Shown: one piece after another, positions 7,988-23,953 of the stretch
Numbering within the stretch: the stretch's first letter is position 1
How the letters are laid out: each line of letters opens with the position of its first letter
Assembly (NCBI RefSeq): GCF_020193655.1
Contig: NZ_JADYVE010000002.1
Span: 496,001-560,000, forward strand
DNA length: 64,000 nt
DNA from: Ensifer sp. IC3342
GTDB taxonomy: Bacteria > Pseudomonadota > Alphaproteobacteria > Rhizobiales > Rhizobiaceae
Direction of reading: 5' to 3'
Made by a program: the position numbers and the translations under genes
The notes under the pieces: generated by a model
Database searches by the model: none
Told to the model about the DNA's origin: nothing
Seen by the model: only the letters and a program-made list of their open reading frames with translations

Positions 7988-9049
7988 CTATTCGCGGATG
8001 ACGAGCAGGTCTTTGGCGGCGAAGCGCAATGTGACGTTTTCGCCGGAGACTGGCGGGGTGAGGCCCGGATCGTTGAACGTGTCGAAGGAGATGATGTCGC
8101 TGCCGACGCGCAGCTTGGTGCGGATGACGGAACCGAGAAAGCTTGTGGAGATGACTTCGCCCGCAAGCGCCGTGTCGCCCTTGGCACTTTCGACGATCGA
8201 GCCGGCCTCGGGGCGCAGGGCGAGCGAAATGCTGTCGCCGCCCTTCATGCCGGCGATTGGCGCTTTCAGCGAAATCCGCTGATCACCAATGGTGACGGCA
8301 CCGCTTGCCGGGTCCGCGACCTTGCCCTCGATGATGTTCAGCGTGCCGACGAAGGAGGCGACGAAACGGGTTGCCGGCGTGTTGTAGATCTCGAAGGGGG
8401 TGCCGATCTGGTCGGCGTGGCCGGCATTCATGACGACGATCCGGTCGGAGATCGACAGCGCCTCCTCCTGGTCGTGCGTCACGAAGACGGTGGTGATGCC
8501 GAGTTGCTGCTGGATCTGGCGGATCTCCTCGCGCAGGGACACGCGGATCTTCGCGTCGAGGGCGGAGAGGGGCTCATCGAGCAGCAGCACTTGCGGCTTG
8601 ACGGCGAGCGCGCGGGCGAGCGCCACGCGCTGCTGTTGGCCGCCGGACAATTGATAGGGAAAGCGGTCCGCCAGGTGCTCGAGCTTGATGAGCCCGAGCA
8701 TCTGCTTCACCCGTTGATCAATTTCCGCTTTTTGAGCCCCCGCGACCTTGAGGCCGAAGGCGACGTTGTCGTGCACGTTCATGTTCGGGAACAACGCATA
8801 GGCCTGGAACACCATGCCGATGTTGCGCTGGTTGGGCTTCAACGCGCCCTGGTCCTTGCCGTCGATGACGATGGAGCCGCCCGAGGGGGCTTCGAAGCCA
8901 GCGATCATGCGCAGGATGGTGGTCTTGCCGCAACCCGAAGGGCCGAGAAAGGAAACGAACTCACCCTTGTTGATGCCCATGTTGAAGTTGTGCACGACCT
9001 GAACCGGGCCGAAAGACTTCTGGATATTGGTCAGTGTCAGGAATGCCAT
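7988..9049 (-). CDS. ABC transporter ATP-binding protein
   Basis: A 353-residue ATPase, last gene of a four-gene importer operon. Walker A GPSGCGKT is at residues 36-43; the signature LSGGQQQRVALARAL and Walker B LLLDEPLSALD follow, then THDQEEALSISD and a C-terminal TOBE domain (SLALRPEAGSIVE). It resembles PotA/FbpC proteins, as does the ATPase at 78-1157, but they are distinct genes. The stop of the permease gene lies only 4 bp upstream, so translation is probably coupled. The substrate is unknown; the surrounding catabolic genes suggest an amine-type compound. Confidence 0.9.
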   Translation of the reverse strand: MAFLTLTNIQKSFGPVQVVHNFNMGINKGEFVSFLGPSGCGKTTILRMIAGFEAPSGGSIVIDGKDQGALKPNQRNIGMVFQAYALFPNMNVHDNVAFGLKVAGAQKAEIDQRVKQMLGLIKLEHLADRFPYQLSGGQQQRVALARALAVKPQVLLLDEPLSALDAKIRVSLREEIRQIQQQLGITTVFVTHDQEEALSISDRIVVMNAGHADQIGTPFEIYNTPATRFVASFVGTLNIIEGKVADPASGAVTIGDQRISLKAPIAGMKGGDSISLALRPEAGSIVESAKGDTALAGEVISTSFLGSVIRTKLRVGSDIISFDTFNDPGLTPPVSGENVTLRFAAKDLLVIRE

Positions 9050-9053
9050 GTGA

Positions 9054-9842
9054 TCAAGCCTTGGCCGGAGCGGATTTCTGGAATCGGGATACGAGCTGGA
9101 TCAGACCCATGCTGAGCCAGGTGATGGCGAACGCGATGACGGCGAGCGCCGAAGGTTCATAGGCCTTGTTGGCGCCGACGAGCTGCAGGTAGGGGCCGAA
9201 GGCCGGCCGGTTGAGCAGCGCTGCCATCGTGAATTCGCCCATCACGATCGCGAAGGTGATGAAGGAACCCGACAGCACGCCGCTCATCACATTCGGGAAG
9301 ATGCAGCGGAAGAGGATCGTCGGCCATTTGGCGCCGAGGCTCTCGGCCGCTTCCGTCAGCGTCCTGACGTCGATCGCCCGCATGGCGGTGTCGACGGCGC
9401 GGTACATGTAGGGGAGCGACAGTGTCATATAGGAGAACATCAGGAGCGCGTTCGTTCCGGAGGTCGAGCCGGTCAACGGCAGGATCGATGAGGAGTTGTA
9501 GAGGCGCAGGTAGCCGAAGACGATGACGATCGCCGGGATGACGAGCGGCAGCAGCGTGATGAATTCCACGACCGGTCGCACCTGCGGCAGCCGCAGCCGC
9601 ACCCAGTAGGCGGTCGGCACGACGAGCAACATGCCGAAGATGATGGTCAGGAGCGCCATCAACATCGAATAGCCGAAGGTTTCGCGGAACTGGATGTCGG
9701 AGAAGACCGACTGGTACGCATCAAAGGAATATTGGCCGCGCCGCATGCGCAGCGAGAACTCCAGCGTGCCGAGCAGCGGAATGACGAAGTAACCCGCCCC
9801 GATGGCGATCGCGATCCAGGCGCCGAGGCGTTGTGCTTTCAT
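9054..9842 (-). CDS. ABC transporter permease (second)
   Basis: A 262-residue inner-membrane permease with about six hydrophobic segments and the EAA-loop typical of binding-protein-dependent importers (TEAAESLGAKWPTILFRCIFPNVMSG). The ATG at 9842 overlaps the TGA of the preceding permease as ATGA, which favours it over the GTG three codons upstream. It forms the channel with the product of 9839-10720. Confidence 0.9.
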   Translation of the reverse strand: MKAQRLGAWIAIAIGAGYFVIPLLGTLEFSLRMRRGQYSFDAYQSVFSDIQFRETFGYSMLMALLTIIFGMLLVVPTAYWVRLRLPQVRPVVEFITLLPLVIPAIVIVFGYLRLYNSSSILPLTGSTSGTNALLMFSYMTLSLPYMYRAVDTAMRAIDVRTLTEAAESLGAKWPTILFRCIFPNVMSGVLSGSFITFAIVMGEFTMAALLNRPAFGPYLQLVGANKAYEPSALAVIAFAITWLSMGLIQLVSRFQKSAPAKA

Positions 9843-10720
9843 TTCTGCCACCGTTCGGCGCGCATCCGCAGCCAGATATAAAGAATGTTGGAAATGCCGG
9901 TGATGACGATCATGCCGAGCGCCAGTGCATAACCGAGGTTCGGGTTATGCAGCACGTCGCCGCGGATCTGCGCATAGAGCAGGATCGGCACGATGTTGAG
10001 CGAACTGCCGGTGAGCGCGTAGGCCGTGGCGATTGCGCCGAAGGCGTTGGCGAAAAGCAGGAGTGTCGTGCCGAGCAGGCTCGGCCAGAGGATCGGCAGC
10101 GCCACCATGCGCCAGTATTGCCAAGTCGAGGCGCCAAGGATCTCGGATGCCTCGCGCCATTCCTTCTTCATGCCGTCGAGCGCCGGCGTCAGGATCAGCA
10201 CCATCAGCGGGATCTGGAAATACATGTAGGTGATGGTGAGGCCGAAGAAGCTCAGGAGGTTGAAGCCGGTCGAGTAGAGATTGAACCCGAACCAGTCGCG
10301 CAGGAAAACCGTCACGAGGCCGGTGCGGCCGAGCGTCGCCAGAAAGGCGAAGGCGAGCGGCACGCCGGCAAAGTTCGAGGCGACGCCGGAAAAGGTGAGA
10401 AGGCCGGAGCGGACCCAGGCAGGCACACCGCCGAGCACGATCGCCCAGGCGAGAAAGAAACCGATCAGCGCGCCGCCGAGCGAGGAGGCGACCGAGACCC
10501 GGATAGAGATCCAGTAGGCGGAGAGAATCGAGGGCGTGAAGAGATCGGCGATGTTCTTGAAAGTGAGTTCGCCCTCCGGCGTCAGAAAGGCGCCGGTCAC
10601 GAGATAGAGGGTCGGGACGATCAGGAACATCAGCGCGAAAATCATGAACGGCGCGATGCCGAGCCAATCGATAATCGCCCGCTTGCTGATCAGAGGTGCT
10701 GCGGCTGTTGTCGTGGTCAT
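9839..10720 (-). CDS. ABC transporter permease (first)
   Basis: A 293-residue PotB-like permease. It has an N-terminal transmembrane helix (WLGIAPFMIFALMFLIVPTL) and five further hydrophobic segments, with the conserved cytoplasmic loop REASEILGASTWQYWRMVALPILWPSL. I start at ATG 10720, which begins MTTTTAAAP just before the first helix; the open frame continues upstream but encodes an implausible Arg/Ser-rich leader overlapping the hairpin behind the binding-protein gene. It overlaps the next permease by 4 bp. Confidence 0.9.
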   Translation of the reverse strand: MTTTTAAAPLISKRAIIDWLGIAPFMIFALMFLIVPTLYLVTGAFLTPEGELTFKNIADLFTPSILSAYWISIRVSVASSLGGALIGFFLAWAIVLGGVPAWVRSGLLTFSGVASNFAGVPLAFAFLATLGRTGLVTVFLRDWFGFNLYSTGFNLLSFFGLTITYMYFQIPLMVLILTPALDGMKKEWREASEILGASTWQYWRMVALPILWPSLLGTTLLLFANAFGAIATAYALTGSSLNIVPILLYAQIRGDVLHNPNLGYALALGMIVITGISNILYIWLRMRAERWQK

Positions 10721-10749
10721 TGCGTTTCGGTCGTCCGCCGTCAAGGGAA

Positions 10750-10779
10750 GCCTCCCCGCCACGCGTGCGGAGGGGAGGC
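10750..10779. terminator. Intercistronic hairpin after binding-protein gene
   Basis: An 8-bp GC-rich stem (GCCTCCCC / GGGGAGGC) with an extendable inner stem lies in the 70-bp gap between the binding-protein stop and the first permease start. There is no U-run, so it is more likely an mRNA-stabilising or attenuating structure that keeps the binding protein in excess than a full terminator. Confidence 0.55.
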
Positions 10780-10790
10780 CGATCTTCTGA

Positions 10791-11894
10791 TTACTGCACG
10801 TTGGCGCCGACGACGCTATCCCACTTGGTGGTGATTGCCGTCTTGCCGGCCTCCTGCTCTTCGAGCGTCGGGAAGACGGCCTTTTCATAGGCCGCTGCCG
10901 GCGGCAGCTTGTCGAGCATCTCCTGCGGGATCTTGCCGTTCTTGGCGAGATCGTTGAAGCGGATCGGGTGGCAATAGCCCTTCAGCCAACCGAGCTGACC
11001 TTCGTCGGAATAGAGGTATTCCATCCAAAGCTTGGCGGCATTCGGATGGGGTGCGAAGGCCGAGATTGCCTGGACGTAGACGCCGGCGACGACGCCCGAA
11101 GCCGGAACGACGACCTCGACCGGCGGGTTGCCGTTCAGGCTGTCGCGCCAGGAGAGGCCGTTATAGTCCCAGGCGATGATGATCGGGGTGGAGCCTTGCG
11201 CGAGCGAGGCGGACTTGCCGATCACCGGAACGAAGTTGCCGGCCTTGTTGACCTCGGCGAAGAAAGCGAGGCCAGCCTCGCCGGCCTTGGCTGCGTCCTT
11301 CTCACCGGCGGAAAGGCCGGCGGCGTAGACGGCCTGGACGGCCTGGTTGGACGCGCGCGGATCGCCGGCGAGCGCGACCGCATTCGCATAGTCCGGCTTC
11401 TTAAGGTCGGCCCAGTCCTTCGGCACGTCCTTGACGATGTCGGTGTTCACCACGAACGAGAGAACGCCGTAATAGTCGCCATACCAGTAGCCTTCGGCGT
11501 CCTTGGCGCTATCCGGGATCGTGTCCCAGGTCGAGACCTTGTAAGGCTGGATCAGGCCTTCGGCCTTCGCCGACGGACCGAAGGACAGCCCGACGTCGAT
11601 CACGTCCGGTGCCTGCGGGCCGGTGTTGCCCTTGTTGGCCTTGATGGCTTCGATTTCGTCACCCGAACCGGCGTCCGGGTTCAGTTCGTTGACTTCGATG
11701 CCGTACTTGGCCTTGAAGCCCGCAATAACGTCGCCGTAACCGCACCAGGTGTGCGGAAGCGCGATCGTGGTCAGCGTGCCTTCCTTCTTGGCGGCGGCGA
11801 TAAGCTCCTCGCTCGGCTCGGCGACGGCGATGGCCGACGTTGCGAGCAGCATGGCAGTGGAAAGCGAGAGCAGGCGTTGAGTCTTTGAAATCAC
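10791..11894 (-). CDS. Periplasmic substrate-binding protein of ABC importer
   Basis: A 367-residue precursor. A signal peptide of about 25 residues (KTQRLLSLSTAMLLATSAIAVA) is followed by a family-1 solute-binding fold (EGTLTTIALPHTWCGYGDVIAGF, then APDVIDVGLSFGPSAKAEGLI, and FAPHPNAAKLWMEYLYSDEGQ near the end). The last feature is common in PotD, iron-binding and phosphonate-binding proteins. The GTG at 11894 is chosen because a strong AAGGAG lies 8 bases upstream. It is first in the operon with two permeases and an ATPase. The ligand cannot be deduced; an amine or amino-alcohol-related compound is suggested only by the neighbouring enzymes. Confidence 0.88.
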   Translation of the reverse strand: MISKTQRLLSLSTAMLLATSAIAVAEPSEELIAAAKKEGTLTTIALPHTWCGYGDVIAGFKAKYGIEVNELNPDAGSGDEIEAIKANKGNTGPQAPDVIDVGLSFGPSAKAEGLIQPYKVSTWDTIPDSAKDAEGYWYGDYYGVLSFVVNTDIVKDVPKDWADLKKPDYANAVALAGDPRASNQAVQAVYAAGLSAGEKDAAKAGEAGLAFFAEVNKAGNFVPVIGKSASLAQGSTPIIIAWDYNGLSWRDSLNGNPPVEVVVPASGVVAGVYVQAISAFAPHPNAAKLWMEYLYSDEGQLGWLKGYCHPIRFNDLAKNGKIPQEMLDKLPPAAAYEKAVFPTLEEQEAGKTAITTKWDSVVGANVQ

Positions 11895-12087: not shown

Positions 12088-12945
12088 CTAGACCGGCCTG
12101 CGGAAGATGCGCGTCGAATCGAACAGGCCTTCAAGCATCTTCATCCGGTCCCGTGTCTCGTCCCAGGTCATGTTCTGCACGGCTTCGATCAGCGCCTCGA
12201 CGAGAAAGAGCAGCATGACCGAACTATCCCAGGCCGAGGGCGCTTCGATCTGCGCGCGGAAGACCTTGGAAGAGGACTTGGCGACCGGCGAACCCCACTG
12301 GTCGGTGAAGAGGACGATTTCGACGCCCCGATCACGGGCGAAGCGGGCAAGCGTTTCCATTTCCTGTTCGTACCGGCGGATATCGAACAGGATCAGAACG
12401 TCGCCCTGCCTCATGTCCAAGACGTAGTGCGGCCAGGAACTCGGGTTCGCGGCGATCTGAGTAACGCCGGTGCGGATGACCTGGAGATGGGTGAAGAAGT
12501 AGTCCGCAATCGACCGAGTGATGCGCCCGCCGGCGAGATAGATATTGCGCTTGCGATCGGCGATCAGGGTGGCGGTTTGGTCGAATTCGCGCGGTTCTAT
12601 CTGGGACAGCGTCTGGCGCATGTTTCCCATGACCGCGTCGGCGAACCGGTTGAGTGTGTGCGTGCCGGGGGCGCTGGCGGCCCAGCGATCATGCTTGGCG
12701 ATCGGATTGGAAATCGTCGCCTCGAGCTCCTGGTGGAGCCTTGACTGAAAGTCCGGAAATCCGCGGAAGCCCAGCTTCTGGACCATGCGCGCCACGGTTG
12801 GCGTCGAAACGCCGGCGTTCTCGGCGACCGTCGTAATCGAACCGAGTCCGGAGACGGGATAGTTGTCGAGAAGTGTTTCCGCCAATCGCTTTTCGGCGCG
12901 CGTCAGCGCCGCGAAATGTGCGTTGATCACATCCGACACCGTCAT
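12088..12945 (-). CDS. RpiR-family transcriptional regulator (HTH plus SIS)
   Basis: About 285 residues. The N-terminal HTH_6 domain reads FAALTRAEKRLAETLLDNYPVSGLGSITTVAENAGVSTPTVARMVQKLGF, the standard RpiR pattern. The C-terminal half is a SIS domain (NIYLAGGRITRSIADYFFTHLQ, GDVLILFDIRRYEQEMETLARFARDRGVEIVLFTD), which normally senses a sugar phosphate or other small ligand. The start is uncertain: ATG 12945 begins at the domain boundary, whereas a TTG at 12966 has AGGGGC upstream. It lies between the ABC operon and the divergent catabolic genes, so it probably controls both. Confidence 0.87.
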   Translation of the reverse strand: MTVSDVINAHFAALTRAEKRLAETLLDNYPVSGLGSITTVAENAGVSTPTVARMVQKLGFRGFPDFQSRLHQELEATISNPIAKHDRWAASAPGTHTLNRFADAVMGNMRQTLSQIEPREFDQTATLIADRKRNIYLAGGRITRSIADYFFTHLQVIRTGVTQIAANPSSWPHYVLDMRQGDVLILFDIRRYEQEMETLARFARDRGVEIVLFTDQWGSPVAKSSSKVFRAQIEAPSAWDSSVMLLFLVEALIEAVQNMTWDETRDRMKMLEGLFDSTRIFRRPV

Positions 12946-13068
12946 GGATGCCGCTTTGCTGGTCAATGTCGTGCCCCTGAACTGGTCTGCGCCAGCTTGT
13001 GACGAATTAAACATCGCTGTGACAATCGGAGTCAATGAGCTTTTTGAAGAGATCGTTTCAGATTCTCG

Positions 13069-13102
13069 TTGACACTCCCCGATTCGTGAAGAATTCTCTT
13101 CA
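13069..13102 (+). promoter_or_regulatory. Candidate promoter and RpiR operator
   Basis: TTGACA at 13069-13074 could be a -35 element for the plus-strand genes. An inverted repeat TGAAGA-ATTC-TCTTCA (13087-13102) overlaps the expected -10 position. GAA...TTC symmetry fits operators of RpiR-type regulators. The assignment rests on position and symmetry only. Confidence 0.4.
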
Positions 13103-13125
13103 TTAAGAGCGTCTGACGAGGCAAT

Positions 13126-13914
13126 TTGGGGGTGCCGGTTTTGACGGGACTTTTGACGCAGGCAGAGGGCCATCCGGTCGCCATCGACAATGCGGACGGG
13201 AAGGGAGACTTCCTCTTCGTCTGCGAGCACGCGTCGCGCCTCCTGCCAGAGCGCCTGGGGACGCTGGGCCTTTCAAAAGATGCACTGGAGAGCCACATCG
13301 CCTGGGACCCCGGCGCGCTGGCGGTCGCCAGGCATCTTGCCGAGAGGCTCGATGGCACGCTCATCCATCAACGTTTTTCTCGCCTTGCCTATGACTGCAA
13401 TCGGCCGCCCGAGTCCGACGCGGCGATGCCGGCCGTCAGCGAAATCTACGAGGTGCCGGGCAACAGGGCGATGTCTGCCGCAGAACGGCAGGCGAGGGTG
13501 GAGGAGATCTATCTGCCGTTTCGTGATGCCGTGGCGCGGTTCGTGTCCGAACGCAAGGCCGCCGGGCGGCGCCTCGTCCTTGTCACCATGCACAGTTTCA
13601 CGCCCATCTATTTCGGCAACCCGCGCACCGTCGAAATCGGGATCCTGCACGATGCCGACAGCCGGCTTGCCGACCGCATGCTCGCGATCGCTACGGACGG
13701 AGAGGTCGCCTACGACATTCGCCGGAATGAGCCCTACGGGCCGGCGGACGGCGTTACGCACAGTCTGGTGGAATACGGCGTACGAAACGGCCTGCCGAAC
13801 GTGATGATCGAGATCAGAAACGATCTCATTCGAGACGAGATCAGCCAGAGGGTCATGGCTGATTATCTGGAGGGGCTGCTCGCAAAGAGCGCGGCCACCC
13901 TTCCGGCACGATAA
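13126..13914 (+). CDS. N-formylglutamate amidohydrolase family protein
   Basis: About 262 residues of the FGase (HutG-type) family, zinc-dependent amidohydrolases that release glutamate from N-formylglutamate. Family features visible: FLFVCEHASRLLPERLG near the N-terminus, DPGALAVARHLAERLDGTLIHQRFSRLAYDCNRPP, and LVTMHSFTPIYFG. No other histidine-utilisation gene is nearby. Instead it heads a plus-strand array with a permease, a glutamine-synthetase-like ligase and two dehydrogenases, so it might hydrolyse a gamma-glutamyl or other N-acyl amide in that pathway; this is inference. The start is uncertain among TTG 13126, GTG 13132 and TTG 13141. Confidence 0.85.
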   Translation: MGVPVLTGLLTQAEGHPVAIDNADGKGDFLFVCEHASRLLPERLGTLGLSKDALESHIAWDPGALAVARHLAERLDGTLIHQRFSRLAYDCNRPPESDAAMPAVSEIYEVPGNRAMSAAERQARVEEIYLPFRDAVARFVSERKAAGRRLVLVTMHSFTPIYFGNPRTVEIGILHDADSRLADRMLAIATDGEVAYDIRRNEPYGPADGVTHSLVEYGVRNGLPNVMIEIRNDLIRDEISQRVMADYLEGLLAKSAATLPAR

Positions 13915-14018
13915 GAAGACCCTGGGGAGCGGCAAAGCCGCGGTTCCGTTCCGATGGGAACGGTGTGATGGGGCCTCCTGCAATGTCGCGCGAGGTCATG
14001 GAGAAACAGGGGAAGAAG

Positions 14019-15566
14019 ATGTCAGACTATACCGATATCGATAAGAAGCAGGACATGCAGGTCCTGCATTCGATGGGCTACGCTCAGGAGCTCGAGCGGC
14101 GCATGAGCCAGTTCTCGAACTTCGCCGTGTCGTTCTCAATCATCTGCATTCTGTCGGGCGGCATCAACTCGCTGGCGCAAGCGACTTCCGGCGCCGGCGG
14201 CGCCTCGATCGGCATCGGCTGGCCGCTCGGATGCTTCATTTCGCTCGTCTTCGCCGTTGCCATGGCGCAGATCGGTTCGGCCTATCCGACCGCCGGCGGC
14301 CTCTATCACTGGGGCTCGATCCTCGGCAACCGCTTCACCGGCTGGCTGACCGCCTGGTTCAACCTGCTCGGCCTCGTCACGGTTCTCGGTGCTATCAACG
14401 TCGGCACCTATTACTTCTTCATGGGTTCGTTCGGGACGCCCTATCTCGGCCTCGAAGACACCACGACGACGCGCATTGTCTTCCTCGCGATCATCACCGG
14501 CCTGCAGGCGCTCGTGAACCACATGGGGATCGGGCTGACGGCGAAGCTCACCGACTTCTCGGGCTATCTGATCTTCGCGACCTCGATTCTGCTGGGCGTC
14601 GTCTGCCTTGCGGCGGCCGATACCTACGAGATCGGCAGGCTCTTCACCTTCTCAAACTATTCGGGCGAAGCGGGCGGCAATGTCTGGCCACAGACATCCG
14701 GAACCTGGGTGTTCCTGCTCGCACTGCTGCTTCCGATCTACACCATCACCGGTTATGATGCCTCGGCGCACACGTCGGAGGAGACGATTAAGGCCGCCCA
14801 TTCCGTTCCGCGCGGCATGGTCTCCTCCGTGCTCTGGTCGGCACTCTTCGGCTACATCATGCTGTGCGCCTTCGTGCTGATGATCCCGAACATGGACGAA
14901 GCGGCGAAGCAGGGCTGGAACGTGTTCTTCTGGGCGATGGACGCTCAGGTGAACCCGGTCATCAAGGACATCCTCTATCTCGCCATCTTCGTCAGCCAGT
15001 GGCTGTGCGGCCTGGCAACGGTAACTTCGGTCTCGCGCATGATTTTCGCCTTCTCGCGTGATGGCGGCCTGCCGGCCTCCAAGCCGCTTTCGAAGGTGAG
15101 CCCTACCTACCGCACGCCGGTTGCGGCGATCTGGACGGGTTCGATCCTCTCTGTGCTCTTCGTCTGGGGATCGTCGCTCGTCTCGATCGGCGAAACGCCA
15201 GTCTACACCATCGTCGTCTCCTGCACGGTTATCTTCCTGTTCTTCTCCTTCGTGATCCCGATCACGCTCGGCCTTTTCGCTTGGGGAACATCGAAGTGGG
15301 ACAAGATGGGTCCCTGGAATCTCGGCGAGGGCATGTTCAAGCTCTTCGCGATCCTGTCGATCATCGCGATGGTGCTGATCTTCGTCATCGGCATTCAACC
15401 GCCGAACGATTGGGCGCTCTACATCACTGTCGGCTTCCTGATCGTGACCGGCATCGTCTGGTTCGGTTTCGAGAGCCGCCGGTTCCGTGGGCCGCCGATC
15501 GGCGAGGAAGTTGCGCGCCGCCAGGCAGAAATCGCCGCAGCCGAAAAGGCCGTCGGGGAAGCTTGA
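14019..15566 (+). CDS. APC-superfamily amino acid/amine permease
   Basis: A 515-residue inner-membrane transporter with about twelve hydrophobic segments. The start of helix 1 (SNFAVSFSIICILSGGINSLAQATSGAGG) and the YPTAGGLYHWGSILG region resemble the amino acid/choline (ACT) branch of the APC superfamily, which includes GABA and choline permeases. The ATG at 14019 has AGGGGAAG just upstream and is preferred over ATGs at 13965 and 13998. It precedes the glutamine-synthetase-like gene by 93 bp and probably delivers that enzyme's amine substrate. Confidence 0.88.
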   Translation: MSDYTDIDKKQDMQVLHSMGYAQELERRMSQFSNFAVSFSIICILSGGINSLAQATSGAGGASIGIGWPLGCFISLVFAVAMAQIGSAYPTAGGLYHWGSILGNRFTGWLTAWFNLLGLVTVLGAINVGTYYFFMGSFGTPYLGLEDTTTTRIVFLAIITGLQALVNHMGIGLTAKLTDFSGYLIFATSILLGVVCLAAADTYEIGRLFTFSNYSGEAGGNVWPQTSGTWVFLLALLLPIYTITGYDASAHTSEETIKAAHSVPRGMVSSVLWSALFGYIMLCAFVLMIPNMDEAAKQGWNVFFWAMDAQVNPVIKDILYLAIFVSQWLCGLATVTSVSRMIFAFSRDGGLPASKPLSKVSPTYRTPVAAIWTGSILSVLFVWGSSLVSIGETPVYTIVVSCTVIFLFFSFVIPITLGLFAWGTSKWDKMGPWNLGEGMFKLFAILSIIAMVLIFVIGIQPPNDWALYITVGFLIVTGIVWFGFESRRFRGPPIGEEVARRQAEIAAAEKAVGEA

Positions 15567-15659
15567 TCAAACAACAAGAGGGCGGGCCGCGACTGCGGCT
15601 TCCGCCTCATTTTTTGCGGCCACGGGAACGGCCGTACCGAAACATGGGATGACACTTTC

Positions 15660-17024
15660 ATGAGCTATTCGTTCGAGGAACTGAAAGAGGATGTGGCCGA
15701 AGGCCACATCGACACGGTGCTCGCCTGCCAGGTGGACATGCAGGGGCGCCTGATGGGCAAGCGCTTCCATGCGGAATATTTCGTCGAAAGCGCATGGAAG
15801 GAAACGCATAGCTGCAACTATCTGCTTGCGACCGACCTCGAGATGGAGACGGTCTCCGGCTACAAGGCGACGAGCTGGGAGAAGGGTTACGGCGACTATA
15901 CGATGAGGCCGGATCTTGCGACGCTCCGGCGCATTCCGTGGCTCGAAGGTACGGCGCTGGTGCTCTGCGACGTGCTCGACCACCACACGCACGAAGAGGT
16001 GCCGCATTCGCCCCGGGCGATCCTCAAGAAGCAGATCGCGCGCCTCGAGGCGATGGGTCTCAAGGCCTTCATGGCGAGCGAGCTCGAATTCTTCCTCTTC
16101 GACCAATCCTACGACGATGCGCGCCAGTCCGGCTATCGCGACCTGCAGCTCGCCAGCGGCTACAACGAGGACTACCACATCTTCCAGACGACCAAGGAAG
16201 AGGACGTGATGCGGGCGATCCGCAATGGTCTTCAGGGGGCCGGCATCCCGGTCGAAAATTCCAAGGGCGAGGCCTCGGCCGGCCAGGAGGAAATCAACGT
16301 CCGCTATGCCGATGCTCTGACCATGGCCGACCGCCATGCGATCATCAAGAACGGCTGCAAGGAAATCGCCTGGCAGCGCGGCAAGGCCATCACCTTCCTC
16401 GCCAAGTGGAACTATTCGGCCGCCGGCTCCTCCTCGCATATCCACCAATCGCTCTGGAGCACCGACGGGGAGACGCCGCTCTTCTTCGATAAGAGCGCGC
16501 GCTACGGCATGTCCGAGCTGATGCGGCACTATGTGGCCGGTCTTCTGACCCATGCGAGCGAGATCACTTATTTCCTCGCGCCTTACATCAACTCCTACAA
16601 ACGCTTCATGGCGGGCACCTTCGCGCCCACCAAGGCGATCTGGAGCAAGGACAATCGCACCGCCGGCTATCGCCTCTGCGGCGAGGACACCAAGGCGATC
16701 CGCATCGAATGCCGCGTCGGCGGTTCCGACCTCAACCCGTACCTGGCCTTTGCCGCTTTGATCGCCGCCGGCATTTCCGGCATTGAAGGCAAGATGGAAC
16801 TCGAAGCGCCGTTCGTCGGCGATGCCTATCACGGCAAGGACATACGCGAGATCCCGCATACGCTGAGGGATGCGACCGAGGCGCTGACCAGTTCGAAGAT
16901 GTTACGCGCCGCCTTCGGCGATGACGTCATCGACCACTATACCCGCGCGGCACGCTGGGAGCAGGAGGAATATGACCGGCGCGTGACCGACTGGGAGGTC
17001 GCGCGCGGTTTCGAAAGGGCGTAA
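15660..17024 (+). CDS. Glutamine-synthetase-like gamma-glutamyl-amine ligase
   Basis: A 454-residue member of the glutamine synthetase superfamily. It shows an N-terminal beta-grasp region (TVLACQVDMQGRLMGKRF), the metal-binding ELEFFLF, SKGEASAGQEEINVRYADAL, the ATP-site AAGSSSHIHQSLW, NSYKRFMAGTFAPTKAIW, and CRVGGSDLNPYLAFAALIAAG. Length and motifs fit PuuA/GlnA4-type ligases that join glutamate to putrescine, ethanolamine or other amines rather than to ammonia; there is no adenylylation-site Tyr motif like that of GlnA. Flanking permease, aldehyde dehydrogenase and alcohol dehydrogenase genes support a catabolic role. The amine substrate is unknown. Confidence 0.85.
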   Translation: MSYSFEELKEDVAEGHIDTVLACQVDMQGRLMGKRFHAEYFVESAWKETHSCNYLLATDLEMETVSGYKATSWEKGYGDYTMRPDLATLRRIPWLEGTALVLCDVLDHHTHEEVPHSPRAILKKQIARLEAMGLKAFMASELEFFLFDQSYDDARQSGYRDLQLASGYNEDYHIFQTTKEEDVMRAIRNGLQGAGIPVENSKGEASAGQEEINVRYADALTMADRHAIIKNGCKEIAWQRGKAITFLAKWNYSAAGSSSHIHQSLWSTDGETPLFFDKSARYGMSELMRHYVAGLLTHASEITYFLAPYINSYKRFMAGTFAPTKAIWSKDNRTAGYRLCGEDTKAIRIECRVGGSDLNPYLAFAALIAAGISGIEGKMELEAPFVGDAYHGKDIREIPHTLRDATEALTSSKMLRAAFGDDVIDHYTRAARWEQEEYDRRVTDWEVARGFERA

Positions 17025-17033
17025 GAATTTCCC

Positions 17034-17063
17034 TCCCACCCCCTCTCCACAAGGGGGAGGGGC
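17034..17063. repeat. C/G-rich hairpin repeat
   Basis: The 190-bp gap between the ligase and aldehyde dehydrogenase genes begins with a C-tract then G-tract hairpin (CCCCCTC ... AAGGGGGAGGGG). This type of short repeat is common between rhizobial genes. Another C-rich then G-rich pair follows at about 17140-17179. It could stall transcription, but there is no U-tail. Confidence 0.45.
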
Positions 17064-17214
17064 TTCCCTGGCGCGGCGCCTCGCCTGAGCCGTCGCCACT
17101 TGCGGAGACATCGGGTTGGACGAGGCTATGCCATCCGCACCCCCTCCTTCTTGTGCCGCGGGGAAAAAACGGGGAGGGGAAAATTCAATTGAAAGCAAAA
17201 GCAGGATGACGATC

Positions 17215-18600
17215 ATGACGATGATCAAATGCATTTCCCCGGTGAACGGCGAAGTCTATGCCGAGCGCCCCGCAATGCCGCTGGAACTCGCCAGACAGGC
17301 CGTGGCCCATGCGCGTCTGGCGCAGAAAAACTGGGCAAAGCGCCCGATCGAGGAGCGCGTCAAGCTCGTGCTCGCGGGCGTCGCGCGGCTGAACGAGATG
17401 GTCGACGAGGTCGTGCCCGAGCTTGCCTGGCAGATGGGCCGGCCGGTGCGCTATGGCGGCGAGTTCAAGGGCTTCAACGAGCGTTCCAACTATGTCGCCT
17501 CGATCGCCGCCGATGCGCTGAAGCCGATCATTGTCGAAGAGAGCGACCGCTTCGAGCGGCGCATCGAGCGCGAGCCGCATGGCGTCGTCTTCGTCATCGC
17601 ACCGTGGAACTACCCTTACATGACCGCGATCAATACGGTCGCCCCGGCGCTGATGGCCGGCAACACGGTCATCATCAAGCATGCGAGCCAGACGATCCTT
17701 GTCGGCGAACGCATGGTGCGCGCCTTCATCGAGGCGGGCGTTCCGGCGGATGTGTTCCAGAACCTTTTCCTCGATCACGACACGACGGCGGCGCTGATTG
17801 CCTCCAAGAGCTTCGACTTCATCAATTTCACCGGCTCGGTCGAAGGGGGGCGCTCGATCGAACGAGCCGCAGCCGGAACCTTCACCGGCCTTGGCCTCGA
17901 GCTTGGCGGCAAGGACCCCGGCTATGTGATGGAGGACGCGGATCCCGACGCCGCTGTCGACACGCTGATGGACGGCGCAACCTACAATTCCGGCCAGTGC
18001 TGCTGCGGCATCGAGCGCATCTATGTGCACGAATCGCTCTACGACGCATTTGTCGAGAAATCGGTTGCCTGGGTTTCCAACTACAAGCTCGGCAATCCGC
18101 TCGATCCGGAGACGACGCTGGGGCCCATGGCCAACAAGCGCTTTGCCGCAACAGTGCGCCGCCAGATCGCCGATGCCGTTTCGAAGGGCGCCAAGGCGCT
18201 GATCGATCCCAAGCTTTTCCCGCAGGATGACGGCGGCGCCTATCTCGCGCCGCAGATCCTCGTCGATGTCGATCATTCGATGGAATTCATGCGCGAGGAA
18301 ACCTTCGGGCCGGCGGTCGGCATCATGAAGGTGAAGAACGACGCCGAGGCGATCGAACTGATGAACGATTGCCAGTATGGCTTGACCGTTTCGCTCTGGA
18401 CGAAAGACGCCGAACGCGCGTCCCGCATCGGCCGTGATCTCGAAACCGGTACCGTCTTCATGAACCGCGCCGACTATCTCGACCCGGCGCTTTGCTGGAC
18501 GGGGGTCAAAGAAACGGGCCGCGGCGGTTCTCTTTCGATCCTCGGCTTCCACAATCTCACCCGCCCGAAATCCTATCACCTGAAGAAAGTAACCGCATGA
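17215..18600 (+). CDS. NAD(P)-dependent aldehyde dehydrogenase
   Basis: A 461-residue aldehyde dehydrogenase that oxidises an aldehyde to the acid. The nucleotide-binding APWNYP is near residue 130, the general base Glu is in LELGGKDPGYV (about 229), and the catalytic Cys is in NSGQCCCGIER (GQxC, about 263), followed by EETFGPAVG. Start choice is among clustered ATGs at 17206, 17215 and 17221; 17215 has the best spacing from AGGA. It overlaps the alcohol dehydrogenase gene by 4 bp (ATGA), so the two are translationally coupled. Paired with an alcohol dehydrogenase it could convert a hydroxyl group to a carboxylate via the aldehyde. Confidence 0.92.
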   Translation: MTMIKCISPVNGEVYAERPAMPLELARQAVAHARLAQKNWAKRPIEERVKLVLAGVARLNEMVDEVVPELAWQMGRPVRYGGEFKGFNERSNYVASIAADALKPIIVEESDRFERRIEREPHGVVFVIAPWNYPYMTAINTVAPALMAGNTVIIKHASQTILVGERMVRAFIEAGVPADVFQNLFLDHDTTAALIASKSFDFINFTGSVEGGRSIERAAAGTFTGLGLELGGKDPGYVMEDADPDAAVDTLMDGATYNSGQCCCGIERIYVHESLYDAFVEKSVAWVSNYKLGNPLDPETTLGPMANKRFAATVRRQIADAVSKGAKALIDPKLFPQDDGGAYLAPQILVDVDHSMEFMREETFGPAVGIMKVKNDAEAIELMNDCQYGLTVSLWTKDAERASRIGRDLETGTVFMNRADYLDPALCWTGVKETGRGGSLSILGFHNLTRPKSYHLKKVTA

Positions 18601-19742
18601 CGATTACCGCCAACTGGAGCTATCCGACCGCCGTCAAGTTCGGCGCGGGCCGGATCATGGAGCTTGCCGACCACTGCAAGGCTCTCGGCATGAAAAAGCC
18701 GCTGCTCGTGACCGACCGTGGCCTTGCGCCGATGGCAATCACCCAGCACGCGCTCGACACTTTGGAGGCGGGCGGCCTCGGACGCGCCATCTTCGCCGAC
18801 GTTGACCCGAACCCGAACGACAGAAACCTGGAAGCCGGCGTGAAGGCGTTCAGGGACGGCGGCCATGACGGCGTCGTCGCCTTCGGCGGTGGTTCCGGTC
18901 TCGATCTCGGCAAATGCGTCGCCTTCATGGTCGGCCAGACGCGGCCGGTCTGGGACTTCGAGGATATCGGCGACTGGTGGACACGCGCGAGCGTGGAAGG
19001 CATTGCGCCGATCGTGGCTGTGCCGACGACCGCCGGCACCGGCTCGGAGGTGGGGCGTGCCAGCGTCATCACCAATTCGGCAAGCCACGTGAAGAAGGTG
19101 ATCTTCCACCCGAAATTCCTGCCGGGGGTAACGATCTGTGATCCGGAGCTGACGGTCGGCATGCCCAAGGTCATCACCGCCGGTACGGGCATGGATGCCT
19201 TCGCCCATTGCCTGGAGGCTTACTCCTCGCCCTTCTACCATCCGATGTCGGCGGGTATTGCGCTCGAAGGCATGCGTCTCGTCAAGGAATACCTGCCGCG
19301 CGCATACAAGGACGGCGCGGATATCGAAGCGCGTGCGAACATGATGAGTGCCGCGGCGATGGGTGCGGTCGCGTTCCAGAAGGGGCTCGGCGCGATCCAT
19401 TCGCTCTCTCATCCAGTTGGTGCGATCTACAACACGCATCACGGCATGACCAATGCCGTCGTGATGCCGCCGGTGCTGCGCTTCAACCGGCCGGCAATCG
19501 AGGACAAGATCGCGCGCGCTGCTGCCTATCTCGGCATCGCCGGCGGGTTCGACGGTTTCTATGACTACGTGTTGAAGCTGCGTGAGGAGCTTGGCGTGCC
19601 GGACAAACTTTCCGCGCTCGGCGTCGGCACCGATCGCATCGATGAAATGGCGGAAATGGCGATCGTCGATCCGACGGCTGGCGGCAACCCGGTTGAACTG
19701 ACCCTCGACGCGGCGAAAAAACTGTTCAGAGAAAGCATCTGA
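18597..19742 (+). CDS. Iron-containing (type III) alcohol dehydrogenase
   Basis: A 381-residue group III alcohol dehydrogenase. The NAD-binding GGGSGLDLGK lies at about residues 97-106 and PTTAGTGSEVG at 143-153. Metal ligands are expected at Asp200 and His204 (GTGMDAFAHCLEAY), His268 (IHSLSHPVGA) and His282 (NTHHG), all present. It shares ATGA with the upstream aldehyde dehydrogenase and is followed by a terminator, so it closes the operon. It would oxidise an alcohol, plausibly a gamma-glutamylated amino alcohol, to the aldehyde used by its neighbour; the substrate is inferred. Confidence 0.92.
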   Translation: MTITANWSYPTAVKFGAGRIMELADHCKALGMKKPLLVTDRGLAPMAITQHALDTLEAGGLGRAIFADVDPNPNDRNLEAGVKAFRDGGHDGVVAFGGGSGLDLGKCVAFMVGQTRPVWDFEDIGDWWTRASVEGIAPIVAVPTTAGTGSEVGRASVITNSASHVKKVIFHPKFLPGVTICDPELTVGMPKVITAGTGMDAFAHCLEAYSSPFYHPMSAGIALEGMRLVKEYLPRAYKDGADIEARANMMSAAAMGAVAFQKGLGAIHSLSHPVGAIYNTHHGMTNAVVMPPVLRFNRPAIEDKIARAAAYLGIAGGFDGFYDYVLKLREELGVPDKLSALGVGTDRIDEMAEMAIVDPTAGGNPVELTLDAAKKLFRESI

Positions 19743-19767
19743 GCCGGAAGCGCGTTAATTTTTCCTA

Positions 19768-19800
19768 AGCCCGGAGAGCCTGGTTCTCGGGGCTTTTTTG
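19768..19800 (+). terminator. Rho-independent terminator of the catabolic operon
   Basis: A stem AGCCCGGAGA / TCTCGGGGCT (one G-G mismatch) followed by TTTTTTG, 25 bp after the alcohol dehydrogenase stop. Confidence 0.85.
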
Positions 19801-19944
19801 TTTCTCTGCGGTCGGTAGCCAGATCGGCGGTTAATCTTTGCCCGCCAAAATTTCCATTTCGTTAACCATGTTCTGAAAGGCTTTGTTAAGGGCGCCGCCG
19901 ATGCTTCGGCCGGGCCTCGAAACAATGACGGAATGAGGTGGAAG

Positions 19945-20664
19945 ATGGCGGTCATCACATTTGCCAACGCAAAAGGCGGCGCCGGCAAGACGACGGCGGC
20001 ATTGATCCTGTCGACGGAACTGGCGAGACAGGGCAACAGGGTGGTGGTGCTCGACGCGGATCCACAGCGTTGGATCACACGCTGGTCGGAAGTTTCCGGC
20101 CACGTCGCCAATCTCGAAGTGATCTCGCACATCACGCCGGCGTCGCTGCCCTGTCATATTCGCGAACTGAAAGACGAGGCCGATTTCATCGTGATCGATC
20201 TCGCTGGCGCCAAGGATGCGATCGTCGCGCTGGCGCTCGGCCTGTCCGATCAGGTGCTGATTCCGGTCCAGGGGTGCGCGATGGACGCGCAGGGCGCCGT
20301 CCAGATCCTGGAACTGATCCGCCATATCGAACAAAGGGCGACGGTGCGCATCAAGCATTCCGTGGTGCTTACGCGCGTCAATTCGCTGGTGACTACGCGT
20401 GCACTTCAGACGATCAAAACGCTGCTCGCGTCGCGCGGTGTTGCAATGCTCGAAACGCCGATCGTCGAACGCGCCGCCTATCGCGAGATTTTCGAATGCG
20501 GCGGAACGCTGCAGACGATGGATGCGGGCCGTGTCAGCAATCTCGACAAGGCGCGCGAGAATGCACTTGCGCTTGCTCAAGAGGTCCAGGCGCTTTTGCC
20601 CGCTCGCCCGCAACGCTCCTGGGCTTCGCGGGTGCCGTCCTGGGCGCAACTGCGCGCCGCGTAG
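19945..20664 (+). CDS. Orphan ParA/VirC1-like ATPase
   Basis: A 239-residue deviant-Walker ATPase. The P-loop KGGAGKTT is at about residues 10-17 with the signature lysine, then VVVLDADPQR and VIDLAGAKD as switch and Walker B regions. It begins directly at the P-loop, with no N-terminal helix-turn-helix, as in VirC1 and ParA-like orphans rather than plasmid SopA types. No parB or centromere-like repeat is adjacent. The ATG at 19945 is preceded by GAGG. Possible roles are positioning of a polar or chemosensory complex, the next gene being a chemoreceptor, or DNA partitioning; neither is shown. Confidence 0.85.
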   Translation: MAVITFANAKGGAGKTTAALILSTELARQGNRVVVLDADPQRWITRWSEVSGHVANLEVISHITPASLPCHIRELKDEADFIVIDLAGAKDAIVALALGLSDQVLIPVQGCAMDAQGAVQILELIRHIEQRATVRIKHSVVLTRVNSLVTTRALQTIKTLLASRGVAMLETPIVERAAYREIFECGGTLQTMDAGRVSNLDKARENALALAQEVQALLPARPQRSWASRVPSWAQLRAA

Positions 20665-20940
20665 TCACGTCGCGGCCAACGCGATCATCACCTTTCTGCG
20701 GACCAGAATTGATGTTCGTCAGTTCCGGTTGAATCTTTTGTCGTCGCTGCATCGAATGGCTGTCGCGCGTAAGGCTTCCTTTACCATGGTCTTTTAACCC
20801 TGCCGATGGAAAGTGAATACGCCTCAATGTCTTATTGGCGCGGCCGCCATGAACGCGGCGACGGGTTCCCGATGCACTGCGCAGCATCCGCGGTTCCGAC
20901 CTTCCATGACCCATCGAGCTCTATGCAGGGAAGTTCACGG

Positions 20941-22458
20941 ATGAAGACGGAACCCTCCACAGGCGGCCAGGATATCGCCGGCCGTCTCAATTTCATGGCA
21001 CTGGATGAAGCCGCCAAGACAAATTTACGGGCGCTGAAGCCGATCCTGCAGAAGGAGCTCGGACCTGCGCTCGACCGCTTCTATGCAAAAGTGAAGCAGA
21101 CGCCGGACACCAACGTCTTCTTCTCGTCCGACGGACACATCAACCGTGCCAAGAACGCGCAGCTCGGTCATTGGAGCAATATCGTCGACGCGAATTTCAA
21201 CGCCGAATATGGCGCCAAGGTACGCACGATCGGCCAGGTTCACGCCAGGATCGGCCTCGAGCCCCGCTGGTATATCGGCGGCTATGCGCTGATTGCGGAG
21301 CACCTGATCGGTGCAGTTGTGAAGGCGCATTGGCCGAAGGGTGGCGTCTTCTCCCGCCAGACGACCTCGGCGGAAGAGATGGGCGCGATGCTGGCGAGCC
21401 TGATCAAGGGCGTCTTCCTCGACATGGACCTCTCCATCTCGGTTTATATGGACGCCTCCGACGTGACGAAGCAGCGCGCCGTGCAGGAGGAGGTGCTTGC
21501 CGGCGAGCGGGAACTCGTCAGCCACACGTTCGGCGCGGCATTGAAACAGATTTCCGATGGCGATCTGACTGCGCGCATAACGTCCGACCTGCCGGAGGCT
21601 TACGGCGAGCTTCGCGAAAACTTCAATCACGCCATCAGCGAACTGGCTCGGGTCATCGGCGGGATCGGTGCCGGCGCCAGCCAGATTCACCTGAACGCCA
21701 AGGAAATCGCCGATGCTGCCGACGATCTCGCAAAACGCACCGAACGACAGGCGGCCAATCTCGAGGAAACTGCAGCCGCGGTGGAACAGGTGACGCGCAC
21801 GGTGCGTCAGACGGCCGAGGGCGCCGACCAGGCCAATTCGACTGTCATTGCCGCACGCGCCAATGCCGAGCAAGGCGGCGAAGTCGTCAGCTACGCCATC
21901 GGCGTCATGCAGGAAATCCAGGCGTCCTCGGCGAGCATCGCCCGCATTGTCGATGTGATCGACGAGATCGCCTTCCAGACCAATCTGCTGGCGCTCAATG
22001 CCGGCATCGAGGCGGCGCGCGCCGGCGAGGCGGGCAGGGGCTTTGCGGTCGTCGCCTCCGAGGTGCGCGCGCTCGCGCAGCGCTGTGCCGAGGCGGCCAA
22101 GGATATCCAGTCGTTGATCGCGAAATCGCGTGAGCAGGTCGAGGACGGCGTCAACTCGGTCAACAAGGTGGCCCAATCGCTGCAGCAGATCGTGGCGCAG
22201 GTGGTGGAGGTAAGCTCGGTCTTCGGTGCGATCCGCGCGAGCACAGCCGAGCAGGCGACCGGCCTGCAGGAAGTCAACAGTGCCATCAGCCAGATGGACC
22301 AGATCACCCAGCAGAACGCGGCGATGGTGGAGCAGGCGAACGCCTCGAGCCAGGCGCTGACGGCGGAAGCCGAGCAGATTGCACGACGTCTCCGCGCATT
22401 CAGGACCTCCGGCAGTGCCAGTGCCAGTGGTGCACCGGGCTACCTAGCGGCGGCTTAG
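20941..22458 (+). CDS. Globin-coupled, soluble methyl-accepting chemotaxis protein
   Basis: About 505 residues and no transmembrane segment. Residues ~15-190 are a protoglobin sensor domain: QLGHWSNIV carries the likely proximal haem ligand His77, followed by [23 protein letters not shown] short HAMP-like segment ([23 protein letters not shown]) precedes a long coiled-coil signalling domain whose tip [41 protein letters not shown] is unmistakable. It likely senses oxygen or another haem ligand and signals through CheA. It has no obvious C-terminal CheR/CheB-binding pentapeptide. The layout matches the IcpA-type cytosolic receptor of S. meliloti. The start has AGGGAAG upstream. Confidence 0.93.
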
Positions 22459-22486
22459 GTTGCTGGGCGGAGCACAGCCTCACACG

Positions 22487-22515
22487 CTCGTCATCCCTGA
22501 GCACAGGATGACGAG
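22487..22515. terminator. Bidirectional terminator-like hairpin
   Basis: A perfect 10-bp stem CTCGTCATCC / GGATGACGAG with a 9-base loop sits between the convergent chemoreceptor and FAD oxidase genes. The T-run is weak on either side. Confidence 0.55.
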
Positions 22516-22559
22516 AGCTTAGAGGTTCATTGTGCTCGGTGAGGCGCGGGAAGAATGGC

Positions 22560-23849
22560 TCAGAAGCGCCGGTCGACGAAGTGCTTTGCCTGCGCGCCGG
22601 CGTGATAGAAGGCCGATTTTACGGTCCGCCACGGATCCGGCGTGATCGGCGTTTCAGCGAGCGGAACTGCGGATGCATCGCCCATGACGTGATGGGCGAG
22701 CGCGCGCCCGAAGACGGTTCCGGGCGCAATGCCGCGGCCATTGTAGCCGCTCACGGAGATGACATTCGGCGCGAGCACGTGCATGGCGGGCAGGTTATTG
22801 GTCGTCATGCCGATGCTGCCGTCCCACCAGTACTCGAAACGAAAATCGTCGATATAGGGGAAGAGCTTGCGCAGCGAGCGGGCCGCGAAGGCGCGATGCG
22901 TGCCCTCGGCTATGGCGTCGAGGCGGCCGATCGAACCGAAGATCAGCCGGTTCTGCTGGTCCATTCGGAACGAGGTCATCACGAGCCCGGTATCCCAAGT
23001 GCCCTGACGCTCAGGCAGGATTCGCGTTGCGACCTTTTCAGGAAGCGGATTGGTGGCGAACTGGAAATAGGGGAGGATCGTCAGTTCCTGGGTGTAGGCC
23101 TTCCACGGCGCGTCGGGAACGAGGTCACCATAGGCGTTGGTCGCCAGAATGACGTGCCGGGCGGTAATGCTGCCCCGGCCGGCCTTAAGCTTCCAAAGAT
23201 CACCCTGGCGCTCGGCGGCAAACAGAGGTGTGTCGGTGAAGATCCTGGCGCCGGCGGCGAGGGCGGCGCGCGCCAACCCTCTTGCGTAGGCGAGTGGCTG
23301 GATCGTTCCAGCGCGACGGTCAAGCAACGCACCGGCAAAACCCTCGGCGCCGGACAACGCGTGAGTCTTGTCGGCCGACAGCAATTCGACCGGTGCGCCG
23401 CGCTTCTTCCACTGCGCCTCGCGGTCCTGGATGTCCTTAAGGCCGTCGGCGCCGACAGCCATATGGAGCGTGCCGTTGCGCACGGCTTCGCACTGCATAC
23501 CGTGTTTCGCGACGAGATCGTAGACAAGCGACGGACCGTCGCCGAGCTCCTTCAACAAGCGGTTTCCAGCGTCTGCGCCAAGGGTTGCCACGAGATCGTC
23601 CGGCTTCACCCACATGCCGGCGTTGACGAGACCGACATTGCGCCCGGAGCCGCCGAAGCCGATCATCCGCGCTTCGACCAAGGTTGCCTTCACGCCGTTT
23701 TCCGCAAGGTGCAGCGCGGCGGACAGGCCGGTAAAACCGCCGCCGATGATGGCTACATCGGTGGCGAGCTCGCCTGTGAGCGGACCGGTTTCAGGCGCGG
23801 CCGGTGCCGTCGCATGCCAGAGGTTGGGGAGAGCACGCTCCGTTGCCAT
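22560..23849 (-). CDS. FAD-dependent amine oxidase, PuuB/OrdL type (DAO family)
   Basis: A 429-residue flavoprotein. The N-terminal dinucleotide-binding motif is DVAIIGGGFTGLSAALHLAENG, with the acidic VEARMIGFGGSGRNVGLVNAG downstream, and the C-terminal FAD contact is SVSGYNGRGIAPGTVFGRALA. This pattern is that of gamma-glutamylputrescine oxidase and other D-amino-acid-oxidase-fold enzymes that oxidise secondary amines to an aldehyde, ammonia or amine and H2O2. ATG 23849 is preferred over 23858 because AAAGGA lies at proper spacing only from the inner ATG. It lies 3 kb from the glutamine-synthetase-like ligase, suggesting a shared pathway. Confidence 0.88.
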   Translation of the reverse strand: MATERALPNLWHATAPAAPETGPLTGELATDVAIIGGGFTGLSAALHLAENGVKATLVEARMIGFGGSGRNVGLVNAGMWVKPDDLVATLGADAGNRLLKELGDGPSLVYDLVAKHGMQCEAVRNGTLHMAVGADGLKDIQDREAQWKKRGAPVELLSADKTHALSGAEGFAGALLDRRAGTIQPLAYARGLARAALAAGARIFTDTPLFAAERQGDLWKLKAGRGSITARHVILATNAYGDLVPDAPWKAYTQELTILPYFQFATNPLPEKVATRILPERQGTWDTGLVMTSFRMDQQNRLIFGSIGRLDAIAEGTHRAFAARSLRKLFPYIDDFRFEYWWDGSIGMTTNNLPAMHVLAPNVISVSGYNGRGIAPGTVFGRALAHHVMGDASAVPLAETPITPDPWRTVKSAFYHAGAQAKHFVDRRF

Positions 23850-23953
23850 TGCGGACATTCCTTTGTCTTCAGTGCGGGAGAAGAATGCCGGAAACGCCCA
23901 ACTTTATCCTGCACCGATTGATCGTGATGGAAAACTTTCGCCAGTGATAGAAC

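Follow-up and report, generated by a model that had tools for sequence, protein, structure and literature searches.

The genes described here lie in a 64,000-nucleotide stretch of the Ensifer sp. IC3342 genome (contig NZ_JADYVE010000002.1, positions 496,001 to 560,000), hereafter called the window, in a source genome of 7.4 Mb in 115 contigs. They encode an RpiR-family regulator and, divergently from it, an N-formylglutamate amidohydrolase (FGase)-family hydrolase, an APC-family permease, a ligase resembling glutamine synthetase (GS), an aldehyde dehydrogenase (ALDH) and an iron-type alcohol dehydrogenase (ADH), with a four-gene ABC importer on the other side of the regulator (Table 1). An original prediction, made from the sequence letters, had read this set as a candidate gamma-glutamylation pathway for an amine or amino alcohol. 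The open reading frame list of the window and a Pfam scan gave an open frame of the agreeing family for every gene named in that prediction, and the ATGA overlap that it had described was found at the junction of the ALDH and ADH genes. The span it had drawn from position 12946 holds real genes and omits nearly all of the RpiR gene and the entire ABC importer, although its text names both. In the latter, Pfam recognises an ATPase, an SBP_bac_6 binding protein and two permeases, one of which scores slightly under the Pfam cut-off. The start of the FGase gene was picked by length match to the annotated Sinorhizobium meliloti gene (774 nt), and other starts are possible. The prediction had also closed the operon with a terminator. 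A hairpin with a T run does follow the ADH gene; a scan of positions 11000-28000 returned 17 such sites where 14.9 would be expected, and segment 19743-19815 has an unremarkable folding energy (z -1.03), with 29 of 200 shuffled versions folding just as well. Because neither the number of sites nor the folding energy goes beyond chance, this hairpin is weak evidence for a terminator.

Table 1. Features of the window and, in the last three rows, related cassettes on plasmids (positions of the respective locus).
Feature	Sequence	Position	Strand	Remark
ABC importer, four genes (ATPase, two permeases, substrate-binding protein)	window	7988..11891	-	Pfam; left of RpiR and in the same direction
RpiR-family regulator	window	12088..12951	-	HTH_6 and SIS (Pfam); divergent from the catabolic genes
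Candidate RpiR operator, copy 1	window	13045..13060	.	imperfect palindrome, TGAA-type half sites
Candidate RpiR operator, copy 2	window	13087..13102	.	perfect 6-4-6 palindrome; follows closely on a TTGACA hexamer at 13069
FGase-family hydrolase, predicted gamma-glutamylglycine amidohydrolase	window	13141..13914	+	PF05013, 150.8 bits
APC-family permease in the importer slot, predicted ethanolamine importer	window	14019..15566	+	AA_permease_2 (Pfam)
GS-like ligase, predicted gamma-glutamylethanolamide synthetase	window	15660..17024	+	Gln-synt_C (Pfam); PDB 5dm3 match
Aldehyde dehydrogenase	window	17206..18600	+	Aldedh, 402 bits; first codon uncertain
Iron-type alcohol dehydrogenase, predicted gamma-glutamylethanolamide dehydrogenase	window	18597..19742	+	Fe-ADH (Pfam)
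Terminator-like hairpin and T run	window	19773..19798	+	hairpin scan; after ADH
FAD oxidase, DAO family	window	22560-23858		starts 2.8 kb beyond ADH
Aminobacter aminovorans pAA03 cassette	L164	7678-18857		
Aminobacter sp. NyZ550 pMET3 cassette	L185	7648-18882		
Paracoccus pantotrophus plasmid cassette	L178	6395-16625		

The conservation of the cluster was followed in two sets of loci. The rhizobial set consists of the best 80 of 594 confirmed ligase relatives, all with rhizobial record titles. The wider set of 40 loci was hand-picked from an order-wide search of 297 genomes, 39 of them from the 122 genomes with a match of at least 60% identity and one at 53%; four (L118, L119, L150 and L151) come from the same family as the window. 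Order and direction of the FGase, ligase, ALDH and ADH genes are kept in 78 of the 80 rhizobial and 30 of the 40 wider loci. Within the fetched stretches, which reach about 10 kb to each side, an RpiR gene is adjacent and divergent to the FGase gene in 78/80 and 24/40 loci, and the two misses in the rhizobial set (L063 and L094) come from a contig of 4.9 kb and from the end of a contig. An ALDH gene lies downstream of the ligase in all 80 rhizobial and 33 wider loci, and an ADH gene is present in 79 (the miss being the 4.9 kb contig) and 35, respectively. The ligase itself occurs in 14 of 15 sampled genomes of the window's family. The cluster is a conserved unit, and the co-conservation by which the original prediction had proposed to judge it was found. 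Some rhizobial loci carry an insert between the ligase and ALDH genes; in L075 (11909-12331) this encodes a PIN-domain protein from a similarity cluster of ten members and is possibly part of a toxin-antitoxin pair within the operon.

The ligase of the window is 98% identical to a Sinorhizobium psoraleae ligase. Among solved structures it matches PDB 5dm3 (E 2e-202; 295 of 450 aligned query residues identical), which we take to be the product of a Chromohalobacter salexigens gene neighbouring a TRAP transporter gene, and PDB 11zs is a further solved relative with a similar match. Such a ligase near PDB 5dm3, adjoining genes for an ALDH, an alcohol dehydrogenase and an FGase-type hydrolase, is what the ethanolamine gamma-glutamylation route leads one to expect. 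No match to EutB, the large subunit of ethanolamine ammonia-lyase, was obtained in the source genome, and in a control set of 14 genomes E. coli was matched. Judged from homology and gene neighbourhood, ethanolamine, which the original prediction had only listed among several amines, is the best supported substrate.

The slot between the hydrolase and ligase genes varies, while the remaining genes are colinear. In the rhizobial set it is occupied by a window-like APC permease (at least 49% identity) in 67 loci, by TRAP genes in eight, by a TIGR00908-like permease in four and by none in one. The corresponding numbers in the wider set are five, 20 and three, with none of these importers in 12 loci; in at least two of these (L125 and L141) the slot spans about 3 kb. 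The L080 permease and the TRAP genes from L040 and L049 were compared with family models, and the remaining TRAP and TIGR00908-like genes were classed by their similarity to them. In L040 (Sinorhizobium sp. 8-89) the TRAP binding protein finds its best solved relative in PDB 4uab, presumably the C. salexigens TRAP protein with ethanolamine, at E 2e-161, with the next following at 2e-20. Binding of ethanolamine by the C. salexigens TRAP protein is on record (PMC10132767). The permease of L080 (Neorhizobium huautlense) reaches 365 bits on the NCBIfam 'ethanolamine permease' model (TIGR00908; cut-off 382). The simplest reading is that one compound, ethanolamine, reaches an unchanged set of enzymes through different importers. 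This exchangeable importer slot is an addition to the published pathway.

The only solved relative found for the FGase-family hydrolase is PDB 2odf (Atu2144; E 7e-94), presumably from an Agrobacterium gene judging by the locus tag. The original prediction had remarked on the lack of histidine-degradation neighbours, and the S. meliloti annotation lists no such gene within about 9.5 kb of the orthologue. On three plasmids the RpiR, FGase, ligase, ALDH and ADH genes stand directly before beta-hydroxyaspartate-cycle (bhc) genes, with ligases 81-82% and alcohol dehydrogenases 89% identical to those of the window. These cassettes have no importer between hydrolase and ligase; two of the plasmids are conjugative and one is mobilizable. 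The Paracoccus pantotrophus record shows an insertion sequence between the RpiR and FGase genes and does not list bhcA. The beta-hydroxyaspartate cycle serves the assimilation of glyoxylate, and glycine is a substrate of its aldolase. The position of the cassette directly before the bhc genes therefore fits glycine as the end product, and glycine is the predicted product of the window's genes as well; the glycine-cleavage protein GcvP is present in the window's genome. Cassette and bhc genes together perhaps form a mobile module leading from ethanolamine to central metabolism.

The RpiR protein is likely to be a repressor or sensor of the operon. The spacer between its gene and the FGase gene contains two palindromes 42 bp apart. 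Their pattern was derived from the window and then sought in relatives, with 18 of the 120 loci left out that have no RpiR gene beside the FGase gene. Of 78 spacers in the rhizobial set, 74 contain two such sites spaced by 41-43 bp (69 pairs by exactly 42 bp), and exact dinucleotide shuffles (kinship uncorrected) lead one to expect two or more sites in 0.76 of the 78. Across the 102 loci no other words of the spacer are as well conserved as the palindromes (mean 3.3 mismatches versus a median of 6.4). The exact degenerate pattern occurs at two places in the whole genome, one being copy 2 and the other lying on contig C18, and the reversed-pattern control at none. Beyond the rhizobial set, two of the four same-family wider loci have the pair; among 20 spacers of other families, eight hold at least one site (2.2 expected) and four at least two (0.24 expected). 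The S. meliloti spacer has both sites and two Aminobacter plasmids have one each; none was found in the spacers of Ruegeria, Paracoccus pantotrophus and Paracoccus denitrificans. The paired palindrome is a candidate RpiR operator, to which the regulator would bind, and copy 2, following the TTGACA hexamer, might be placed as a repressor site.

The ABC importer shows a narrower distribution. In all 14 same-family genomes holding both, it lies no more than about 6 kb from the ligase, in one of two arrangements: behind the RpiR gene or downstream of the ADH gene (L150, L151 and L177). Importer and ligase are both present in 33 genomes of other families, in none of them within 60 kb on one contig, a count limited by draft assemblies. 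Ten of ten regions outside the family contain the complete four-gene ABC unit with no RpiR, hydrolase or ligase gene alongside, and in four of four annotated plasmid records the importer is found without the cluster and among differing neighbours. Over the 297 genomes, with ligase-positive meaning the 122 genomes with a listed match of at least 60% identity (one of them partial), binding protein and ligase are both present in 47, the ligase only in 75, the binding protein only in 26 and neither in 149 (Fisher p 5e-6); minus 15 same-family genomes the numbers become 33, 75, 26 and 148 (p 0.0025). This co-occurrence is weak because relatedness is uncorrected. Within the sample, the ABC importer is linked to the cluster only in the window's family, where it is perhaps an accessory importer for the pathway.

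The locus is very probably, on the strength of homology and gene order, the Sinorhizobium version of the ethanolamine gamma-glutamylation route published for Phaeobacter MED193 (Westermann et al., 2023, PMC10132767), in a variant with another transporter. Ethanolamine would be taken up by the APC permease and perhaps also by the ABC importer, and the GS-like ligase would join it to the gamma-carboxyl of glutamate under consumption of ATP. The iron-type ADH and then the ALDH would oxidise the hydroxyl arm to gamma-glutamyl aminoacetaldehyde and gamma-glutamylglycine, which the FGase-family hydrolase would split into glutamate, to be recycled, and glycine, to be passed on to glycine cleavage or other C2 metabolism. 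RpiR would control the divergent promoters via the palindrome pair 42 bp apart. The genes with their order, conservation and family assignments, the importer swap and the conserved palindromes were read from the sequences, whereas all reactions, the substrate, the product and DNA binding by the regulator are inferred. The chemistry of the original prediction, namely gamma-glutamylation, oxidation of alcohol and aldehyde and release of glutamate by the FGase-like enzyme, thus agrees with homology and gene order; its Puu-type oxidase and its novelty have to be given up. A fuller scheme can be offered tentatively, with chances somewhat below even. It is a modular operon in which the APC permease takes the place of the TRAP system as ethanolamine importer, the ABC importer adds a further route of uptake, specific to the family, for ethanolamine or a phospholipid-headgroup precursor, and both divergent operons are under RpiR control by way of the paired operator.

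Several points weigh against the ethanolamine route or against the candidate operator. The full core is absent in 10 of the 40 wider loci, and the APC permease of the window, with TIGR00907 as its best NCBIfam match (198.8 of 598.3 bits), is far from every model named for ethanolamine. As to the palindromes, the window alone has two matches with up to two mismatches versus 1.43 expected, a number reached in 41 of 100 shuffles and not significant, and the pair 41-43 bp apart occurs in none of the 20 spacers of other families. The literature searched yielded no assay of the Sinorhizobium genes. For Phaeobacter, a figure in the available part of PMC10132767 calls the pathway 'predicted', and that part gives the enzymes without assay. 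The same paper cites related genes as 'demonstrated' to form the ethanolamine pathway in C. salexigens and Agrobacterium tumefaciens C58, whereas the C. salexigens pathway is called predicted in silico in PMC6529630; a 2022 review presents the scheme as proposed for C. salexigens (PMC9397018). Lastly, close amino alcohols such as serinol stay in play as substrates at the level of sequence, because two relatives from beta-rhizobia (62% identity) belong to rhizobitoxine-type clusters.

In these two relatives, Paraburkholderia sabiae (L179, 3380-10859) and Paraburkholderia phymatum (L186, 1880-9359), the 62% identical GS-like ligase ends a seven-gene rhizobitoxine-type cluster. A putative rhizobitoxine operon of seven genes has been described in Paraburkholderia phymatum (PMC5789663), and we infer that the L186 cluster is this operon. 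The gamma-Glu-GABA-hydrolase-family gene in both clusters suggests gamma-glutamyl protection of serinol, an amino-alcohol intermediate in the rhizobitoxine pathway (PMC3222319), during biosynthesis. On a Rhizobium sp. CB3171 plasmid (L180, 3990-13319), a ligase paralogue of 52% identity is accompanied by genes for an FGase, an APC permease, an aminotransferase, an ALDH and a dimethylformamidase-like protein, with no alcohol dehydrogenase among them; this probably represents a sister route acting on a different amine. Both kinds of relative lend some support to an alternative in which the same pathway logic serves another small amino alcohol (serinol, 1-amino-2-propanol or 3-aminopropanol) and ethanolamine is a side substrate. 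We consider this improbable: colinear close relatives carry either TRAP genes like those of the ethanolamine-binding system or a TIGR00908-like permease, and the cassette beside the bhc genes fits glycine, not longer or branched amino acids.

Less probable still is a putrescine pathway of the Puu type with the nearby FAD oxidase as PuuB. An APC permease, a GS-like ligase and an ALDH are common to the Puu set, and the oxidase, a DAO-family protein, is only 2.8 kb away. The ligase, however, scores 203.6 bits on the gamma-glutamylputrescine synthetase model (cut-off 650), so PuuA does not serve as a model for it, and the alcohol dehydrogenase would have no role in such a pathway. The oxidase gene, which the original prediction had called PuuB/OrdL-like, is real, but it resembles L-pipecolate oxidase (best NCBIfam match, 444 bits; cut-off 600), and an orthologue of more than 60% identity occurs in the fetched stretch of 24 of the 80 rhizobial and none of the 40 wider loci. 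Being outside the operon and not co-conserved, it was rejected as a pathway step; with no PuuB-type oxidase in the operon and the ligase under the model cut-off, the Puu model was rejected as a whole. The idea that the GS-like protein is one more ammonia-dependent glutamine synthetase among unrelated neighbours, which the retained Gln-synt_C domain would allow, was likewise rejected and is equally unlikely, as the ligase reaches 0.6 and 0.5 of the cut-offs of the GlnA and type III GS models, six other Gln-synt_C matches exist in the genome, two of them scoring far higher, and the gene order is conserved across families.

Between the ADH and oxidase genes lie a ParA-like gene and, at 20806-22458, a gene for a protoglobin-coupled methyl-accepting chemotaxis protein, likely an oxygen sensor, which is found beside some relatives of the operon only. 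Among the records consulted, CP090106.1 (L163), an S. meliloti sequence titled 'plasmid pSymB', measures 3.72 Mb; by usual sizes we take it to be chromosome-sized, and its label may be wrong.

The S. meliloti record, in which the ligase orthologue is LZK74_28110, names the genes only in general terms, such as 'glutamine synthetase family protein' and 'N-formylglutamate amidohydrolase'. The analysis gives this generically annotated cluster a likely substrate, the phospholipid headgroup ethanolamine, and likely products, glycine and recycled glutamate. It suggests a way in which a genome without ethanolamine ammonia-lyase could use ethanolamine, and it names two candidate importers and a defined candidate site for RpiR binding.

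Four known systems invite comparison. The E. coli Puu pathway comprises an APC permease, a GS-like ligase, an ALDH and gamma-glutamyl hydrolysis, all shared with the window, together with an FAD oxidase acting on the amine arm and a hydrolase of the class I amidotransferase type; it has no alcohol dehydrogenase. The rhizobitoxine-type clusters of Paraburkholderia phymatum and Paraburkholderia sabiae share the 62% identical ligase and the amino-alcohol context, but they are biosynthetic, contain the gamma-Glu-GABA-hydrolase-family gene and have no alcohol or aldehyde dehydrogenase annotated. In Streptomyces coelicolor, GlnA4 is a characterised gamma-glutamylethanolamide synthetase, and the route proposed there, equal to that of the window in its chemistry, runs via gamma-glutamylethanolamide, the aldehyde and gamma-glutamylglycine (Krysenko et al., 2019, PMC6529630). 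The figure legend of that paper lists a short-chain dehydrogenase and a glutamine amidotransferase for the cluster, in contrast to the Fe-ADH and FGase of the window, and its discussion names SCO1615 as a member of the formylglutamate amidohydrolase family (PMC6529630).

The closest likeness is to Phaeobacter, whose operon contains genes for RpiR, gamma-glutamylglycine amidohydrolase, EtoVWX (TRAP), ethanolamine gamma-glutamylase, gamma-glutamylacetaldehyde-amide dehydrogenase and gamma-glutamylethanolamide dehydrogenase (Westermann et al., 2023, PMC10132767). In strain MED193, growth on phosphorylethanolamine raises the levels of the four enzymes and of the TRAP binding protein, and the TRAP protein binds ethanolamine with a Kd of 7.9 uM (PMC10132767). 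In the literature searched, only this paper and a Vibrio cholerae modelling paper touch on ethanolamine, RpiR, glutamyl compounds and operons together, and no account of the locus in rhizobia was found, most subscription papers lying outside the coverage. The original prediction did not know the combination as a described route; with the Phaeobacter operon and the Streptomyces scheme in print, and with precedents in C. salexigens and A. tumefaciens C58, it was mistaken on this point. Window and Phaeobacter share RpiR, FGase-type hydrolase, importer, GS-like ligase, ALDH and ADH in identical order, and the records of Ruegeria sp. B32 and Paracoccus denitrificans follow an equal plan, with RpiR divergent from the hydrolase and a TRAP importer. 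In the window, by contrast, the APC permease replaces the three TRAP genes, an ABC importer lies behind RpiR and the spacer carries the paired palindrome, which the Ruegeria and Paracoccus denitrificans spacers lack. The pathway is already known, and what the window adds to it is the importer slot, the candidate RpiR control site and the family-linked ABC importer.

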